A stretch of DNA of 64,000 bases from Nereida sp. MMG025 (GTDB lineage Bacteria; Pseudomonadota; Alphaproteobacteria; Rhodobacterales; Rhodobacteraceae), in NCBI RefSeq assembly GCF_021654165.1, contig NZ_JAKFZN010000001.1, forward strand, positions 930,001 to 994,000, read 5' to 3'. The notes under the pieces were generated by a model that was given only the letters and a program-made list of their open reading frames with translations, searched no databases and was not told the DNA's origin. Each line of letters begins with the position of its first letter. Position 1 is the first letter of the stretch. Made by a program: the position numbers and the translations under genes. Below, one piece after another: positions 41,706 to 54,670 of this stretch.

Positions 41706-42932
41706 CTAGGCCAAAAGGCCGATGTCAGGCCCCATTTGCAGCCCCGGGAACACCGCAGTTTCCAACGCGGCTCTGTCGACTCCATAAAGCCCGCGCAAAA
41801 CCCAAGCGGCATGGGCACGCACATCCGAGGTCGGCAAAAGATCGCGGCGATCATAAAGATCCGCTTCTGACAGGCCGGGCCATGCGCCATGCACTTTGCC
41901 GCCGTTTATGGCGCCACCGGCCAAAACCATTGCACCTGCGGTGCCGTGATCTGTGCCCGCAGTGCCATTTTCGCGCGCCGTACGACCGAACTCTGTCATG
42001 GCGATCACGGCCGTATTTTCCCAATCGGCCCCAAGACCCGCTTGCAGCGTCAAAATTGTATCGGACAGGCGCTCCAACGCACGGCTTAACCCGCGTTGCT
42101 GATTGTTATGGGTGTCCCATCCGGTCAGGGAAAAACTGGCGATGCGCGTCTCGGCCCGCAGGCGCGATGCCGCGAATTGCGCAAGTTTGCGGTGATCCCC
42201 GCCACGGCTTTGCATCATATTCATCGCCATCATGCCCTCTTCTTGGGCCTCTGACATCTGCTCAAGGCTCAGCGACTGCGCAATCTGGATCGCCTCGCCC
42301 ATTGCCTCATTCAGCGCGACATCATCGTGCATCACCAACTCCATCAGCCTTTGGGTCTGCGCACTCATGTCCAGCTTGGCATCGGGCGACCACTCCGCCA
42401 CAGGTGCATCCCCTGCGGTCAACAGCATCTTTTCGCGCCCGATGGCAAAACTGGTCTCGCTTTGAATTCCCGGCACGACCTGTAGCATGCGGTTCAGCCA
42501 CCCATCGCGGTCGCGCCCGATCGGCACGTCCATCGTGCCCGCCTCCAGCATATCCTGCCCATCAAAATGGCTGCGCCGATCACGGTATGGCGTTGAGGTG
42601 GCGTGAACAAAAGCAAGGTCTTGCGCCGCCCACAAAGGTTGCAAGGGTTCAAGCGCACGGTGCGCGGCATAAAACCCCGTAAGGTCCCAAGCCCCATTTT
42701 CCGCGCCGATCAAAACCTTCTTGCGCAGGCCCAGATAATCAGGGTCGCCCAACGGTTGCACTACACCAAGCCCGTCCATGCCGCCCCGCAAGATGATGAC
42801 AACCAAACGCTTGTCCCCAAGCACCGAGCCGTTCAGATCAGAGGCAAAGGTCACTGGCGTCATGAGGGGCGACGCGGCAAGCGAACACCCCACAAGACCC
42901 ATTCTCAGAATATCGCGTCGTGAAAGGGTCAT
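41706..42932 (-). CDS. DUF1501 protein with Tat signal
   Basis: 408 aa. The N-terminus has a twin-arginine signal (SRRDILRMGLVG ... FAS), so it is exported folded. The body is a DUF1501 domain, distantly sulfatase/alkaline phosphatase-like: VIILRGGMDGL, GWDTHNNQQRG and AMTEFGRTARENGTAGTDHG. Function unknown; it is the partner of the DUF1800 protein encoded 2 nt upstream. Confidence 0.9.
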   Translation of the reverse strand: MTLSRRDILRMGLVGCSLAASPLMTPVTFASDLNGSVLGDKRLVVIILRGGMDGLGVVQPLGDPDYLGLRKKVLIGAENGAWDLTGFYAAHRALEPLQPLWAAQDLAFVHATSTPYRDRRSHFDGQDMLEAGTMDVPIGRDRDGWLNRMLQVVPGIQSETSFAIGREKMLLTAGDAPVAEWSPDAKLDMSAQTQRLMELVMHDDVALNEAMGEAIQIAQSLSLEQMSEAQEEGMMAMNMMQSRGGDHRKLAQFAASRLRAETRIASFSLTGWDTHNNQQRGLSRALERLSDTILTLQAGLGADWENTAVIAMTEFGRTARENGTAGTDHGTAGAMVLAGGAINGGKVHGAWPGLSEADLYDRRDLLPTSDVRAHAAWVLRGLYGVDRAALETAVFPGLQMGPDIGLLA

Positions 42933-42934
42933 CG

Positions 42935-44314
42935 CTATCTCCTTTGAAACGCGGGCGAAATGAGGGTCAGACCAATGCCGGATGCTACATCTTCGGCCGC
43001 CCCCACCGCAAAAGACAGATCGGCAGGCACCTGCTGGCCCAATGCTGTTTGCACAAAATCGCGCGGATCGGGCAGATCAGAGAGGATGCCCGCGGGCGCA
43101 TTCATCGCCCATGTGATCCGCGCGGCCATGCCTTGGGGCGTGATCCACACCTCGTCCTCTTCGGGCCATCCATCTGGCCCCAACGGGCTGCGCCACTGCT
43201 GCCCCATCACCGTGAGGGGAGACACCAGATAGACCTGCGTCCGCCCTGTCGTCAGTGTGGTCAGATCATCGTCCTGCACACCCAACGCCCGCAGCGACGA
43301 CCAGACAAATTCAACGGGTTGTTTGATGTTCGCCGCCGTGCGCTGCCAGGCCGCGGGATGGCTTAGCATGGCGTCATAAACCGCGCTCAAATCGCCTTGC
43401 GTATCCAGATAGGCCGCTTCCATCGCTGCAATCAACGCGTCCGAAGGGGCATCTGCAACGAAATGCACAGCCAACTTGCGCGCAAGATGGCGGGCGGTAT
43501 CGGGGTGGCGTGCCAGATCATCAAGGGCGGCCAGGATCGGCTCTATCGTGGCGCGACCCGCGTTGCCATACCGCACGCCCAAAACCTCCTCCGCGCCGGG
43601 TTCGGCCCATCCATCTTTGAAGTGAAACCCATCGCGGTCTCGAAACCCAAGCCCTGTGAACAGCTCGGCCAGTTGGCGCACATCATCCTGATCATAGGCC
43701 CCGCCCACCCCAAGGGTGTGTAATTCCAAAACCTCGCGGGCCAGATTTTCATTCAACCCCCGCCCGCGTCGTTTGCCCACTTTGGTCGAAGGGCCCGCAG
43801 ACAGATGCTGATCCAGATAGGCCAACATCGCGGGGTTCGTAATCACCGCCTTCAGCATATCGCCAAACCGCGCGGTCACATGCGGGCGGATCGCGCTTTC
43901 GACATAGCTGTCGCGCATAAAGCGAAATTCGGCTTGGGGCGGGGCTGCGGTAAAATGATCGGCCCAGAATTGCACCAACCGCTCGCGAAATCCCGAGGGC
44001 GCTCGCGCCCCGCGCAGCACCGTGTGGGTCAAATCCCGCACCGCTTCGTTGCGCATGGTGCGGCGTGCCTTGGAAAAGGCCTTGCTTGCCTCTTCGCCCG
44101 CATCAGTGCCACGCAGCCGCCTGCGGCGCTTGCGCAATTGCGACAGCTCATAAAGCTGCGACCAGCGCGCCTCTAGCGTTCGGATGGGGTAGCGCACAGC
44201 CATTTCATCGCGGCCCTGTGCTTGGGCCAGCATATCACCCACTGATTGCGGCAGCCGCGCATCGGGGCCAAGCCCCGTGCCAAAGCGTCGTTCTGCAAAC
44301 TGTGGATTAAACAT
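42935..44314 (-). CDS. DUF1800 family protein
   Basis: 459 aa. Characteristic DUF1800 blocks: RLVQFWADHFTAAP, GLNENLAREVLELHTLGVGGAYDQDDV, and LARKLAVHFVADAP. It is nearly always paired with DUF1501, as here (2-nt spacing). The reaction is unknown. No signal peptide is evident. The start at 44314 was chosen because GAGG lies about 6 nt upstream, giving MFNPQFAERRFG. Confidence 0.9.
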   Translation of the reverse strand: MFNPQFAERRFGTGLGPDARLPQSVGDMLAQAQGRDEMAVRYPIRTLEARWSQLYELSQLRKRRRRLRGTDAGEEASKAFSKARRTMRNEAVRDLTHTVLRGARAPSGFRERLVQFWADHFTAAPPQAEFRFMRDSYVESAIRPHVTARFGDMLKAVITNPAMLAYLDQHLSAGPSTKVGKRRGRGLNENLAREVLELHTLGVGGAYDQDDVRQLAELFTGLGFRDRDGFHFKDGWAEPGAEEVLGVRYGNAGRATIEPILAALDDLARHPDTARHLARKLAVHFVADAPSDALIAAMEAAYLDTQGDLSAVYDAMLSHPAAWQRTAANIKQPVEFVWSSLRALGVQDDDLTTLTTGRTQVYLVSPLTVMGQQWRSPLGPDGWPEEDEVWITPQGMAARITWAMNAPAGILSDLPDPRDFVQTALGQQVPADLSFAVGAAEDVASGIGLTLISPAFQRR

Positions 44315-44403
44315 CGCGCACCTCACTTACACCTTAAACTGTAAATGGGGGCAAAACCCGTCGAAAAAAGGCTGGCCCCGCACATCGGCAGGGCCATGCT
44401 TAT

Positions 44404-47849: not shown

Positions 47850-49535
47850 TCATGCCTCCTCCATTTGCTGGTCGCCGCCACCGCAGGCTTTAACCTCGGC
47901 ACCATCCTGCCCACCGGCAGGTGACAAAGGCATGGGCATCTTGAAGGCCCGCTCTTTGGCGCGTTCCTTGCCCTGTGCGCGGATCGCTTCGCGCCGCTCG
48001 GCGGCGGCTGCCGCTTTGTCGGCACTGGCAATCCAGTCATCCATCTGCGCTTCTGAAATGGTGCGCGTCTCGTCAAAATGGAAATCCACCTTGTCTTTGG
48101 ATTGCGGTCCCCAATAGCCCGCCTTGCCCAGATCATAGAAGGTCCGCGCAAAACCCGCCTTGGCAAAGGCCTTCAGACAGCCAAGCAGATAGCGGCGACG
48201 ATACCCGGTGCCGCGCCAAGGATAGTGGAACAGCGCCTTTTGGCTGTAAAAACGGCGGTAATTCTTCATCACACCATTCAACAACTCGCCACGTTCCATA
48301 TTCGCAGGCTTCATAATGGGCGTCACAAAGTTGTATTTGCTGAAATCAAAGACCTCGACCTGATCTTTCAGCTCCTGAAACAGCGGGGTGAACGGCCAAG
48401 GCGTATACATCGCCCAGTTCGCCAGATCGGGCTGCCAGTCCCACGCCATCTTATAGGTTTCTTCCAGCGTCTCTTCGGTCTCGTTATCAAGGCCCACGAT
48501 AAATTGCGCTTCGGTAAAGATATCGGCCTCTTTGAGCAGGCGGATCGCTTCCTTGTTTTCCTCGACCTTCGTTTCCTTGTTGAACACATCCAGCTTCAAC
48601 TGAGCCGCCGCTTCGGTGCCAAGGCTGACGTGCACCAGCCCCGCCTTGCGGTAAAACGACAGCAATTCGCGGTCGCGGTAGATGTCGGTCACGCGGGTGT
48701 TGATGCCCCATTGCACACGGCGCGGCAGGTCGCGCTTGATCAATTCCTCACAAAACTGAATGAACTTTTTGCGGTTAATCGTAGGTTCTTCATCAGCGAG
48801 GATGAAAAAGCCGACACCCTGTTCGTTGACCAATTCCTCAATCTCGTCGACCACCTTGATGGGGTCACGCACGCGGTAATCCCGCCAGAATTTCCACTGG
48901 CTACAGAACGAACAGGTAAATGGACAACCGCGCGCCATATTCGGGATCGCAACCTTCACGCCAAGCGGAATATAGATGTAGTCGTCCCATTTCAGCAGCG
49001 TCCAATCGGGTTTGATCGCATCCAGATCCTTGACCGTGCTGGCCGCCTGCGTGGCGCGAATCTCGTCGCCATCAATGAACGCCAGACCCTTGATCTCGTG
49101 GCGGGCGGCAGGCCATTGCCCGTCGCGCACGGCCATCATCAGCGTCTGGAAAATTTCCTCGCCCTCGCCGCGCACGATGACATCAATCCAAGGGGCTTCG
49201 GTCAGGACTTGTTTATACATGAACGTCGCATGCACACCGCCCATGACACGCACGGCATCGGGCACCACCTCAGAGGCGATTTTCAGAACGTTTTCAGCCA
49301 TATAGATGCTTGGCGTGATGGCCGTGACCCCCACAACATCAGGCTGCAACTCGGCCATTTTGACCCGCAGATCACCGTCGGACAAATCATGGGTCATGGC
49401 ATCCAGAAAATGAATGTCGTCAAAACCGGCAGTGCGCAGATGCCCCGCCAAATAAGCAACCCACGCAGGCGGCCACGAGCCCGCAATTTCTGCACCACCT
49501 GACCGATAATTCGGATGCACCAGTAGAATACGCAT
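47850..49535 (-). CDS. bchE: Anaerobic Mg-protoporphyrin IX monomethyl ester cyclase BchE
   Basis: Oxygen-independent formation of the isocyclic ring in (bacterio)chlorophyll synthesis. 561 aa, normal length. N-terminal B12-binding-type domain ([29 protein letters not shown]) and radical SAM cluster CPFTCSFC (Cys204, 208, 211) after NMARG. The C-terminal tail [31 protein letters not shown] is BchE specific. ATG at 49535 has GAGGG 8 nt before it. The 68-nt upstream gap holds PpsR- and FNR-type sites. Confidence 0.95.
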
Positions 49536-49552
49536 GTGAAAACCCTCGCTGT

Positions 49553-49595
49553 TGTAGCGTCAGCTTTACATATGTGGTGTCAACTTACGTTGACA
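49553..49595. promoter_or_regulatory. Two PpsR/CrtJ-type palindromes in the bchE promoter
   Basis: TGTAGCGTCAGCTTTACA at 49553-49570 and TGTCAACTTACGTTGACA at 49578-49595. Both fit TGT-N12-ACA exactly; the second is also a perfect 7-bp inverted repeat. They are 7 nt apart, the close tandem spacing used by PpsR/CrtJ for cooperative repression of photosynthesis genes under oxygen. Confidence 0.8.
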
Positions 49596-49603
49596 CAGAT
49601 CAA
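49590..49603. promoter_or_regulatory. FNR/FnrL-type box in the bchE promoter
   Basis: TTGAC-ACAG-ATCAA, one base away from TTGAT-N4-ATCAA. It overlaps the distal PpsR palindrome and ends immediately before the smr stop codon. FnrL activation of bchE at low oxygen is known in Rhodobacter. Confidence 0.65.
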
Positions 49604-49930
49604 CTAATGCCCCGCACCCGAAAACACCTGAATGATCACCACACCCCCAAGGATCATCCCCATCCCGATCAACGCAGGCGTATCCAACACCTGCTTGTAG
49701 ACGATCCAGCCGATAATGCTGATCACCACAATCCCCATGCCCGACCATATCGCATAGGCAGGCCCCACGGGTATCTCGCGCAGCGCCAGCGCCAACAGAT
49801 AAAACGATGCCGCATAGCTGACCGTCACCACCCCCGTAGGCGCAAGCTTGGTAAACCCGTCACTGGCCTTAAGCGCCGTGGTCCCGATCACTTCCATCAA
49901 AATTGCAAAAAACAGATACACCCACGCCAT
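49604..49930 (-). CDS. Small multidrug resistance (SMR) family transporter
   Basis: 108 aa with four transmembrane helices. The essential glutamate is Glu13 (FAILMEVIGTTALKAS), and PVGPAYAIWSGMGIV plus a late GMILGGVVII complete the family pattern. SMR proteins act as antiparallel dimers, moving cationic drugs or guanidinium. The sequence is closer to EmrE-like exporters than to SugE. It is upstream of bchE on the same strand, separated by the bchE promoter. Confidence 0.93.
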   Translation of the reverse strand: MAWVYLFFAILMEVIGTTALKASDGFTKLAPTGVVTVSYAASFYLLALALREIPVGPAYAIWSGMGIVVISIIGWIVYKQVLDTPALIGMGMILGGVVIIQVFSGAGH

Positions 49931-50053
49931 GCCGCCACCCTTTTTGTTGGGTCAAACCTGCGCCAATCGCCCAGAAATTGCCACTGGATTTTCATAGCCG
50001 CGCCGCGCACCGCTCCTATGCCAGTGGCATACGAGCAGACGGACCAAACACAT

Positions 50054-51355
50054 ATGACCGACGCAACACACGTCAGCCCACCTCACACGGGCCCCCAACT
50101 GGCCGCGCGCAACGCGTGGCTGATGTGCGGCAGTGTCATGGCCCTTTTTGCCACCGTGATGCTCCAGATTTACTGGAACACATGGGCGATTGATCTGGCC
50201 GCGCTTTATATTGCAGCCGCAGGGCTGGCCCAGGGCATCCCCGAAGCGGTCTATGACTCAGAGCCTATTTTCTGGGCCGCCACCGGCCCGATCACCACAG
50301 CCCTGACAGACAGCTACGGTGTGGCGGGCGCAAAATCATCATCCTACGTCTACCCCCCGCTTTGGGCGCATCTGCTGGCACCGCTGACCAACCACATCGC
50401 ACCGCTTGCGTTTTTCAACGCGTTTCTGGTGATCCACATGGCCCTTCTTTGGGGCGGCTTCTTCCTGCTTTGGCGCAGCTTTTGTAACGCCACCCCCACC
50501 TTTGCCAGCGCAGGCATCCTCGCACTGGCCGTTTTGGGGACAGAACCCTTTGTGGCCCTGTTTCTGTATAACCAGCCACAGATGATCCTTGTCTGCCTCG
50601 TCATCACATCCATGCTGTTTTACACCCGCGGCTGGATGATCGCGGCAGGCCTGTGCATCGGGCTGGCCGCCGCAATCAAAATCACACCCGCCGTCTTTGC
50701 GCTGATCTTTCTGGCCGATCGCAACTACCGTGCCTTTGCCGCGGCCACCCTGTCTGGCCTTGCGCTTTTGGCGCTCAGCATTGCGGTGGCGGGGATGGAT
50801 ATGCACTGGGCCTTTCTGAGCCAGCTGGACCGCTTTGGCCAATACGCGCTGATCTGGCATAACAATCTCAGCCTCGAAGCCTTCATCACCTCTTTGATCG
50901 CCACACCCGCCACGGGGCTGATCAGCAGCGAAAGCAGCTATGCCGTGGCCCCCATGATCCCCGCTTTGCGCGTTGCAGGGCACGCCGCCCTGGTCGCGGC
51001 CATCGCCCTTGTCTTGTGGCGCACCCGCAACCATACGCTTTTGGCACGCACCGTTTTGCGCATGCTCGGACTGTGGTGCGCCCTCATCCTTTTGTCCTCA
51101 ACAGGGTGGTCGCACTATATGATCGCGCCGTTGATGCTGTTGCCCATCTTGGTCATGCCCACGCTCGCCGCACAGATCGGACGCACACGTGTCTGGGTGG
51201 CCAGCACCATCGCATTGCTGTGCAACAGCCACCTCATTTCATTCGGACTTGTGGCCAAGCCTGATCCGTTTTCATGGCCCGTTGCCTTTGGAATCCTGTC
51301 GCTCTTTGCATTGCTCTGGCTCGCGATGAGCAAACCCCACCACAAAGCCCTCTGA
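50054..51355 (+). CDS. GT87-like (DUF2029) multi-pass membrane protein
   Basis: 433 aa with about ten membrane helices. FVALFLYNQPQMILVC and AAGLCIGLAAAIKITPAVFAL are typical of the DUF2029/GT87 group of polyprenol-linked mannosyl- or arabinosyltransferases; the membrane topology and a periplasmic loop after the first helix agree. Donor and acceptor unknown. The start at 50054 (MTDATHV) is chosen with modest support; 50018 is an alternative. Confidence 0.75.
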   Translation: MTDATHVSPPHTGPQLAARNAWLMCGSVMALFATVMLQIYWNTWAIDLAALYIAAAGLAQGIPEAVYDSEPIFWAATGPITTALTDSYGVAGAKSSSYVYPPLWAHLLAPLTNHIAPLAFFNAFLVIHMALLWGGFFLLWRSFCNATPTFASAGILALAVLGTEPFVALFLYNQPQMILVCLVITSMLFYTRGWMIAAGLCIGLAAAIKITPAVFALIFLADRNYRAFAAATLSGLALLALSIAVAGMDMHWAFLSQLDRFGQYALIWHNNLSLEAFITSLIATPATGLISSESSYAVAPMIPALRVAGHAALVAAIALVLWRTRNHTLLARTVLRMLGLWCALILLSSTGWSHYMIAPLMLLPILVMPTLAAQIGRTRVWVASTIALLCNSHLISFGLVAKPDPFSWPVAFGILSLFALLWLAMSKPHHKAL

Positions 51356-51427
51356 ATCCCTCTTGCACCTGCCTGCGTCATCCCTATAACGCAGGACAAT
51401 TTGCAAGTCATATCAGGGGGCACTGCC

Positions 51428-54400
51428 ATGCCAAAGCGTACCGACATCCAGTCGATCATGATTATTGGTGCGGGCCCCATTATTATTGGCCAGGCCTGCG
51501 AATTTGACTATTCTGGCGCACAAGCCTGCAAGGCCCTGCGCGAAGAAGGCTACCGCGTCATTCTGGTCAACTCCAACCCCGCCACCATCATGACCGACCC
51601 GGGGCTGGCAGACGCCACCTATATCGAACCGATCACGCCCGATGTGGTCGAAAAGATCATCGCCAAAGAACGCCCCGACGCGCTGCTGCCCACGATGGGC
51701 GGGCAAACAGGGCTGAACACGGCGCTGGCGCTGGATGATCTGGGCGTTCTGGACAAATATGATGTGGAACTGATCGGCGCCAAACGCGACGCGATTGAAA
51801 TGGCCGAAGACCGCAAACTCTTCCGCGAGGCGATGGACCGTCTGGGCATCGAAAACCCCCGCGCCACCATCGCCAACACCTTTGAAGAATGTATGGATGC
51901 GCTGGAAGACATCGGCCTGCCTGCAATCATCCGCCCCGCCTTTACCATGGGCGGCACAGGCGGCGGCGTGGCCTATAACCGCGAAGATTACGAACATTTT
52001 TGCAAAACCGGCCTCGATGCCAGCCCCGTCAACCAGATCCTGATCGACGAGTCGCTTCTGGGCTGGAAAGAGTTTGAGATGGAAGTCGTGCGCGACACCG
52101 CCGACAACGCCATCATCGTCTGTTCCATCGAAAACGTGGACCCCATGGGTGTGCACACAGGTGACAGCATCACCGTGGCCCCTGCCCTGACGCTGACCGA
52201 CAAAGAATACCAACTGATGCGCACCCACTCTATCAATGTGCTGCGCGAGATCGGTGTGGAAACAGGCGGCTCCAACGTGCAATGGGCCGTAAATCCCGCC
52301 GATGGCCGCATGGTCGTGATCGAGATGAACCCACGTGTGTCGCGCTCCTCTGCGCTGGCGTCCAAAGCCACGGGCTTTCCCATCGCGAAAATCGCGGCAA
52401 AACTGGCTGTGGGCTACACGCTGGACGAGCTGGACAACGACATCACCCGCGTCACACCTGCGTCTTTTGAGCCGACGATTGACTACGTCGTCACCAAAAT
52501 CCCGAAATTCGCCTTTGAGAAATTCCCGGGCTCCGAACCTTACCTCACCACGGCCATGAAATCCGTGGGCGAAGCCATGGCCATCGGCCGCACCATTCAC
52601 GAGTCGCTCCAAAAGGCGCTCGCCTCCATGGAATCGGGCCTCACGGGCTTTGACGAGATCGAGATCGAAGGCGCGCCCGAAAAATCCGCCATCATCAAAG
52701 CGATCAGCAAGCAAACCCCCGACCGCATGCGCACCATCGCCCAAGCCATGCGCCACGGGCTGAGCAACGAAGACATCCACGCGACCACCATGTTCGACCC
52801 GTGGTTCCTTGACCGCATCCGCGAGATCATCGACGCAGAAACAGACCTGCGCAAAAACGGCCTGCCCACCGATGAAACGGCCCTGCGCCACATCAAGATG
52901 ATGGGCTTCACCGATGCGCGATTGGCCAAACTCACAGGCCGCGACGAAGACAACGTGCGCCGCGCGCGCCACAACCTTGGCGTCACCGCTGTGTTCAAAC
53001 GCATCGACACCTGCGCCGCCGAGTTCGAAGCGCAAACCCCCTACATGTATTCCACCTATGAAGCCCCGATGATGGGCGACGTGGAGTGTGAGGCCCGCCC
53101 CTCAGACCGCAAAAAAGTGGTTATTCTGGGCGGTGGCCCCAACCGCATAGGACAGGGGATCGAGTTTGATTACTGCTGCTGCCACGCCTGCTACGCGCTC
53201 ACGGACGCGGGGTTCGAGACCATCATGGTCAACTGCAACCCCGAGACTGTCTCGACCGACTACGACACCTCGGATCGTCTGTATTTCGAGCCGCTCACCT
53301 TTGAGCACGTCATGGAAATCCTGCGCGTTGAGCAGGACAACGGCACGCTGCACGGCGTCATCGTCCAGTTCGGCGGCCAGACCCCGCTGAAACTGGCCAA
53401 CGCGCTTGAGGCCGCAGGCATCCCCATTCTCGGCACCTCGCCCGACGCGATTGATCTGGCCGAAGATCGCGAGCGTTTTCAAGCCCTTGTCGAACGGCTT
53501 GACCTCAAACAACCCAAGAACGGCATCGCCCATTCTGGCGCCGAGGCCATGCAAATCGCCCAAGACGTGGGCTACCCACTGGTCATCCGCCCCTCCTATG
53601 TTCTGGGGGGCCGCGCCATGGAAATCGTGCGCGACGACGCCCAACTGACTCGCTACATCAACGAAGCCGTGGTGGTTTCGGGCGACAGCCCCGTGCTGTT
53701 GGACAGCTACCTTGCAGGGGCCGTGGAAATCGATGTCGACGCGCTCTCTGACGGCACCGATGTGCATGTCTCTGGCATTATGCAGCACATCGAAGAAGCA
53801 GGCGTGCACTCTGGCGACAGCGCCTGTTCGCTGCCGCCCTATTCGTTGTCTGACGCAACCATCGCAGAGCTGCGCCGCCAGACCGAAGCACTGGCCCGCG
53901 GGCTGAACGTGGTCGGCCTGATGAACGTGCAATTCGCGGTCAAAGACGGTGACATCTACCTGATCGAAGTGAACCCGCGTGCCTCGCGCACCGTGCCTTT
54001 CGTGGCCAAAGCCGTGAACTCGCCCATCGCCTCTATCGCCGCACAGGTCATGGCAGGCGCCAAGCTGGGCGACTTCACGTTGGTCGACCCGATCACCGAC
54101 ACCTTTGCCGTCAAAGAAGCTGTGCTGCCCTTCGCCCGTTTCCCGGGCGTCGACACGATCCTTGGGCCAGAAATGCGCTCGACAGGCGAGGTCATGGGCA
54201 GCGACAAAGATTTCCACATGGCCTTCCTCAAGGCGCAAATGGGCGCAGGCACCGACCTGCCCAAGGACGGAACTGGCAAAGTGTTCTTCTCGATCAAGGA
54301 CGCCGACAAATCCGATGACATCCTTGAGGCCGCAACGGTGCTGGCAGGCTTGGGCCACAAGATCATGGCCACCCGCGGCACCGCCGATTTCCTGAAATCC

Positions 54401-54670
54401 ACGGGGCTGGACATCGAAGTCGTCAACAAAGTCTACGAGGGGCGGCCCAACGTGGTCGATCAACTGAAAGACGGGCAGATCAGCCTTGTGCTGAACACCA
54501 CCGAAGGCACCCAAGCCATTGAAGACAGCCGCGAAATCCGCTCGGTCGCGCTCTACGACAAAATCCCCTACTTCACCACCGCCGCCGCCTCCCACGCCGC
54601 AGCACTGGCGATGAAAGCCCGATCAGAAGGCGAGATCGAAGTGGTGGCGTTGCAGGCGGGCGATAAATAA
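51428..54670 (+). CDS. carB: Carbamoyl phosphate synthase large subunit
   Basis: Makes carbamoyl phosphate for arginine and pyrimidines with the glutaminase CarA (not in the window). 1080 aa. Two ATP-grasp halves: first half with [33 protein letters not shown] and [16 protein letters not shown]; second with [35 protein letters not shown] and [14 protein letters not shown]; then the C-terminal MGS-like allosteric domain ([13 protein letters not shown]). Start 51428 follows CAGGGGG. Confidence 0.97.

Follow-up and report, generated by a model that had tools for sequence, protein, structure and literature searches.

The window analysed here, a stretch of 64,000 nucleotides from Nereida sp. MMG025, carries on its minus strand bchE (47850-49535), which encodes an anaerobic Mg-protoporphyrin IX monomethyl ester oxidative cyclase of 561 aa (TIGR02026 equivalog, 822.9 bits against a cut-off of 481). 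Upstream, on the same strand, lies a gene of the SMR efflux family (49604-49930), for which no SMR/Qac model reaches its curated cut-off (120 bits at most). The gap between the two genes is 68 nt long (minus strand: TTGATCTGTGTCAACGTAAGTTGACACCACATATGTAAAGCTGACGCTACAACAGCGAGGGTTTTCAC-ATG) and holds an FNR box, a distal and a proximal PpsR palindrome and the Shine-Dalgarno sequence of bchE (GAGGG, 49543-49547, minus strand), which corresponds to purine-rich aligned columns in relatives (offsets 55-60). The stop codon of the SMR gene directly abuts the FNR box. In nine relatives (for example at locus L003) carB adjoins bchE, whereas in the window the SMR gene and an ORF with a weak mannosyltransferase match (50054-51355) separate the two (region 49604-54670), which suggests that a segment was inserted later, up to the very edge of the FNR box. 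Elsewhere in the window, two adjacent minus-strand ORFs of 408 and 463 aa (41706-42932 and 42935-44326) lie downstream of aspS and match no NCBIfam model. The other genome of the same genus in the set (G001) is without bchE.

The FNR box, TTGATCTGTGTCAA (49590-49603, minus strand), has the form TTGA-N6-TCAA. As the earlier note had described, it has one mismatch and overlaps the distal PpsR site; the mismatch is to TTGATNNNNATCAA, the overlap measures 6 nt (49590-49595), and the box shows no mismatch to the FnrL consensus of Rhodobacter capsulatus, TGA-N6-TCA (PMC4634722). The same note had placed two exact TGT-N12-ACA sequences 7 nt apart, TGTAGCGTCAGCTTTACA at 49553-49570 and TGTCAACTTACGTTGACA at 49578-49595, and these coordinates are correct; they give the predicted proximal site TGTAAAGCTGACGCTACA and the predicted distal site TGTCAACGTAAGTTGACA, both on the minus strand. 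Its description of the distal site as a perfect inverted repeat holds for the 7-bp arms, TGTCAAC and GTTGACA, but not for the centre, the dyad being obeyed at 16 of 18 positions, and at 10 of 18 in the proximal palindrome. Taken alone, neither type of element is significant, with 17 copies of TGT-N12-ACA in the window against 11 expected by chance and four one-mismatch FNR boxes against 2.2 expected. Their combination is significant: the composite pattern TTGA-N4-TGTCAA-N9-ACA is found once in the 3.1-Mb genome, at bchE, and in 30 related genomes it has 25 copies, 21 of them upstream of bchE, with none for a reversed control pattern. Tandem TGT-N12-ACA near the promoter core, by which a PpsR/CrtJ-controlled promoter is recognised, is thus present at this locus. 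In one relative an FNR/PpsR composite also lies about 280 bp upstream of a ccoN match (G387:C5:2136972-2136997) and could be a second exclusion site.

A search for bchE was positive in 79 of 395 family genomes, with 80 loci in the named collection, and after removal of duplicates 142 distinct upstream regions were retained, 130 from close relatives (the window included) and 12 assigned to an outgroup by title or kinship. Conservation in close relatives, whose absence had been named beforehand as evidence against the proposal, proved strong: a perfect TTGA-N6-TCAA is present in 126 of the 130 regions, three others keep 7 of the 8 letters and one has no box, while in the outgroup the box is perfect in 8 of 12. 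In most regions its first base lies 62-76 nt ahead of the ATG. In an alignment anchored on the box, the columns preceding it carry almost no information, which rises from 0.2 to 1.9 bits at the first base of the box, and a second conserved block, TGTCA...T...ACA, follows at a fixed distance. Exact palindromes start at +8 from the box in 66 of 129 promoters and at +33 in 72, with nine more at +32, four at +34 and at most four at any other offset, where shuffled sequence gives an expectation of about 0.03 per offset. The footprint, the fixed offsets and the composite counts together rule out a chance origin of the arrangement. The flanking sequence varies between bchE upstream regions, and the genes next upstream at 141 loci form 68 clusters (ppsR at 20 loci, carB at nine, the SMR gene of the window in a cluster of its own); since neighbours differ while the promoter block stays constant, the block seems to travel with bchE. 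In the gammaproteobacterium Chromatocurvus halotolerans (L160), a bchE with 75% protein identity is preceded by a similar block, TTGACATGTGTCAACTACGCTTAACA, which is consistent with joint transfer of gene and promoter.

The core promoter itself probably sits inside the proximal PpsR site. Precisely 22 nt beyond the FNR box there is a conserved -10-like element, TGn-NAnnnT, with A in 117 of 129 promoters at column +37 and T in 100 of 129 at column +41. In the window this corresponds to a predicted extended -10, TGT-AAAGCT (49562-49570, minus strand), with the TGn at -15 to -13 and the conserved A and T at -11 and -7. Among intact proximal palindromes, the A at -11 carries more information than its dyad partner (1.61 vs 1.13 bits), and so does the T at -7 (0.88 vs 0.13 bits); this excess is unexplained by a symmetric protein site and fits a -10 lying inside the palindrome. 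AAAGCT is a poor -10. Where the proximal TGT has been lost, a T at -12 is found in 19 of 35 promoters, compared with 4 of 94 otherwise (p 8e-10, ancestry ignored), yielding hexamers such as TAGGCT, TAGGGT and TAGCCT. The register of the -10 would place the transcription start at the A at 49555 (minus strand) and the centre of the FNR box at -41.5, a predicted position that agrees with the conserved -10-like columns. In E. coli, -41.5 is the position from which FNR acts as a class II activator. The literature searched held no mapped start for bchE.

The six bases in which the FNR box and the distal palindrome overlap (TGTCAA, 49590-49595, minus strand) are shared in the majority of relatives: the distal site is exact in 66 of 129 promoters and TGT is present in the box in 94 of 129, so that the overlap of the two sites is itself conserved, as expected of a mutually exclusive switch. 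The TGT accompanies an intact ACA partner in 66 of 74 promoters, compared with 28 of 55 otherwise (p 2e-6, ancestry ignored). In 30 of the genomes surveyed, the 500 nt preceding ccoN hold 23 perfect FNR boxes, and none of these carries the TGT. Because of this difference between bchE and ccoN, and because the TGT depends on its partner ACA, the shared half-site looks selected and not incidental. Allowing a shift of 1 nt, 27 of 129 promoters have both PpsR sites, the window among them, 39 only the distal one, 58 only the proximal one and five neither, so at least one exact site is kept in 124 of 129. The two are inversely associated, the five promoters with neither comparing with about 21 expected under independent loss (p 3e-10, ancestry ignored), and four of these five retain a one-mismatch distal site; the two sites thus appear able to replace each other. 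In independent pairs on well-supported branches of the BchE tree the directions of these associations hold (for example 4.7 vs 0.2 pairs) and are not significant, the differing pairs being too few. An association of bchE-ppsR adjacency with a missing distal site (p 0.014, uncorrected) vanished in the independent pairs and was rejected.

The genome encodes both candidate regulators: PpsR (TIGR02040, 471 bits) and FnrL (NF045989, 458 bits against a cut-off of 300), with the N-terminal cysteines for an Fe-S cluster visible in the translation of the latter. Together with the TIGR02026 assignment, the conservation of the FNR box and the alignment with R. sphaeroides ChIP sites, this strongly supports the proposal that the bchE promoter is under FnrL and PpsR control. 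We consider it likely, at a probability of about 0.82, that these roughly 70 bp are an oxygen on/off switch activated by FnrL and repressed by PpsR, with a start, class II mode and mutual exclusion as predicted here. The promoter would be one without a good -35 and with a weak -10 aided by the extended TG motif. Without oxygen, FnrL on the box at -41.5 would activate RNA polymerase in class II mode; with oxygen, or in the light via its partners, PpsR would bind at -40 to -23 (distal site), at -15 to +3 (proximal site, over the -10 and the start) or at both. Since TGTCAA belongs to the distal site as well as to the FnrL box, PpsR bound at the distal site should keep off polymerase and FnrL alike, and the promoter would then compute "FnrL AND NOT PpsR". 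On this geometry, FnrL and PpsR probably exclude each other at bchE. The direct competition proposed in the earlier note thus stands as a prediction, its shared half-site being conserved and statistically tied to the rest of the PpsR site, while the extrapolation from Rhodobacter behind it fails for the overlapping site, which is lost in R. sphaeroides; in R. capsulatus the CrtJ motifs at bchEJGP are reported as widely spaced (PMC6199135). The idea of competition therefore draws on geometry and on how the arrangement is conserved among the other family members, not on Rhodobacter data.

Part of this evidence could be read differently. The proximal site might do the repressing, with the distal palindrome mostly a by-product and no real competition, since an FnrL half-site TCAA followed by a TTGA-like sequence readily resembles TGTCAA...TTGACA; R. 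sphaeroides and C. changlensis are without the distal site, R. sphaeroides is nonetheless bound and repressed by PpsR, and the proximal-only class is the one seen in 58 of 129 relatives. The 39 relatives with the distal site only and the 27 with both argue against this, as do the mutual dependence of the distal TGT and ACA and the lack of TGT in the boxes upstream of ccoN, and we find such a by-product improbable. Still less probable is that the perfect TTGACA on the bchE strand (49578-49583) is an ordinary sigma-70 -35, with the FNR box upstream near -49 and not in a class II position: no -10-like columns are conserved 16-18 nt downstream of it (offsets 42-49), the NAnnnT and TG are conserved at their exact distance from the FNR box instead, and TTGACA is missing in many relatives.

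The identity of the activator is a separate matter, because a Dnr- or CrpK-like regulator of the Crp/Fnr family could act at the box in place of FnrL or alongside it. CrpK acts at R. sphaeroides bchE (PMC4263372), DnrD and DnrF induce photosynthesis genes of Dinoroseobacter shibae in concert with FnrL (PMC5398030), and the product of a second Crp/Fnr gene in the genome is weakly similar to FnrL (70 bits). On the other hand, the box matches the FnrL consensus and, of the matches examined, only that of FnrL exceeds the equivalog cut-off, which makes the involvement of another regulator rather unlikely. That bchE transcripts arise chiefly by read-through out of the SMR gene, conceivable for two genes on one strand 68 nt apart, deserves hardly any weight, since this neighbour is found in the window alone while the promoter block is constant. 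An FnrL-activated, PpsR-repressed promoter is the well-supported reading.

BchE serves bacteriochlorophyll synthesis without oxygen, whereas AcsF is the oxygen-using enzyme. Here the oxygen-dependent cyclase AcsF is encoded on the same contig as PpsR (C2) and bchE on another (C1), and cells that have both enzymes must choose between them. If an oxygen sensor and a repressor of photosynthesis indeed exclude each other directly at bchE, this would be a compact and testable AND-NOT gate. A broader generalisation is that most Rhodobacteraceae bchE promoters are a portable element in which exclusion works through a shared half-site, the extended -10 is at the same time the proximal half-site of the repressor, and at least one of two interchangeable PpsR sites is maintained by selection, an arrangement whose tight form would be lacking in both Rhodobacter models from which the system is known; we put the odds of this as even. 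The literature searched, which mostly excluded subscription journals, held no description of a compact promoter of this kind, with a shared half-site, an embedded -10 and interchangeable repressor sites. The comparison with known systems also cautions that R. sphaeroides and R. capsulatus are atypical of the family at the bchE promoter.

That FnrL and PpsR regulate bchE is already known. In R. sphaeroides, FnrL ChIP-chip gave the box TTGACatgcATCAA at bchEJGP (PMC2908626), and ChIP-seq of PpsR, a repressor, gave the motif TGTCAACTGAAATGGACA at bchEJ, where comparison with a ppsR mutant revealed a 9.6-fold expression change (PMC4344238). Mutation of the T at -57, which aligns with base -58 of the window promoter, lowered FnrL-dependent activity by about 90%, and in global expression data the expected effect of FnrL on bchE was not seen (PMC4263372). 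Locus L059 has an FNR box and a proximal palindrome identical letter for letter to these published ChIP sites, and its T at -57 is the mutated base; from these matches we infer that it stems from R. sphaeroides 2.4.1 or from a strain nearly identical to it. As its sites are the published, tested ones, the FnrL box and the proximal PpsR site of the window are their counterparts. At R. sphaeroides bchEJGP the FNR box and the proximal palindrome keep the spacing seen in the window, both between themselves and relative to the ATG, and the control predicted for the window, activation by FnrL and repression by PpsR, has been shown there (PMC2908626, PMC4344238, PMC4263372). Unlike in the window, the distal palindrome is absent, L059 having CATCAATTTGCCCGCCAC in its place, and the FNR half-site is CATCAA, which leaves the FNR and PpsR sites without overlap; direct competition can therefore not be extrapolated from this species.

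In R. capsulatus, bchC, the model for CrtJ, has two TGT-N12-ACA sequences 8 bp apart over its -35 and -10 (PMC5362033, PMC6199135), an architecture similar to that of the bchE promoter in the window. These palindromes span -47 to -30 and -21 to -4, whereas those of the window are predicted to lie about 7 bp further downstream, and the window has an FNR box in the predicted -41.5 place. R. capsulatus bchEJGP also has TGT-N12-ACA and is bound by CrtJ in vivo (PMC5362033), but its CrtJ motifs are reported 45-500 bp apart (PMC6199135). CrtJ remains on photosystem promoters of this species without oxygen (PMC5362033), so the switch may not consist simply in the release of PpsR from its sites. At bchF of the roseobacter D. 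shibae no FNR overlap is described and the main input to PpsR is light, not oxygen; as predicted for the window, TGT-N12-ACA there lies over the -10 and -35, and it has been the subject of a mutation study in a PpsR context (PMC10890935).
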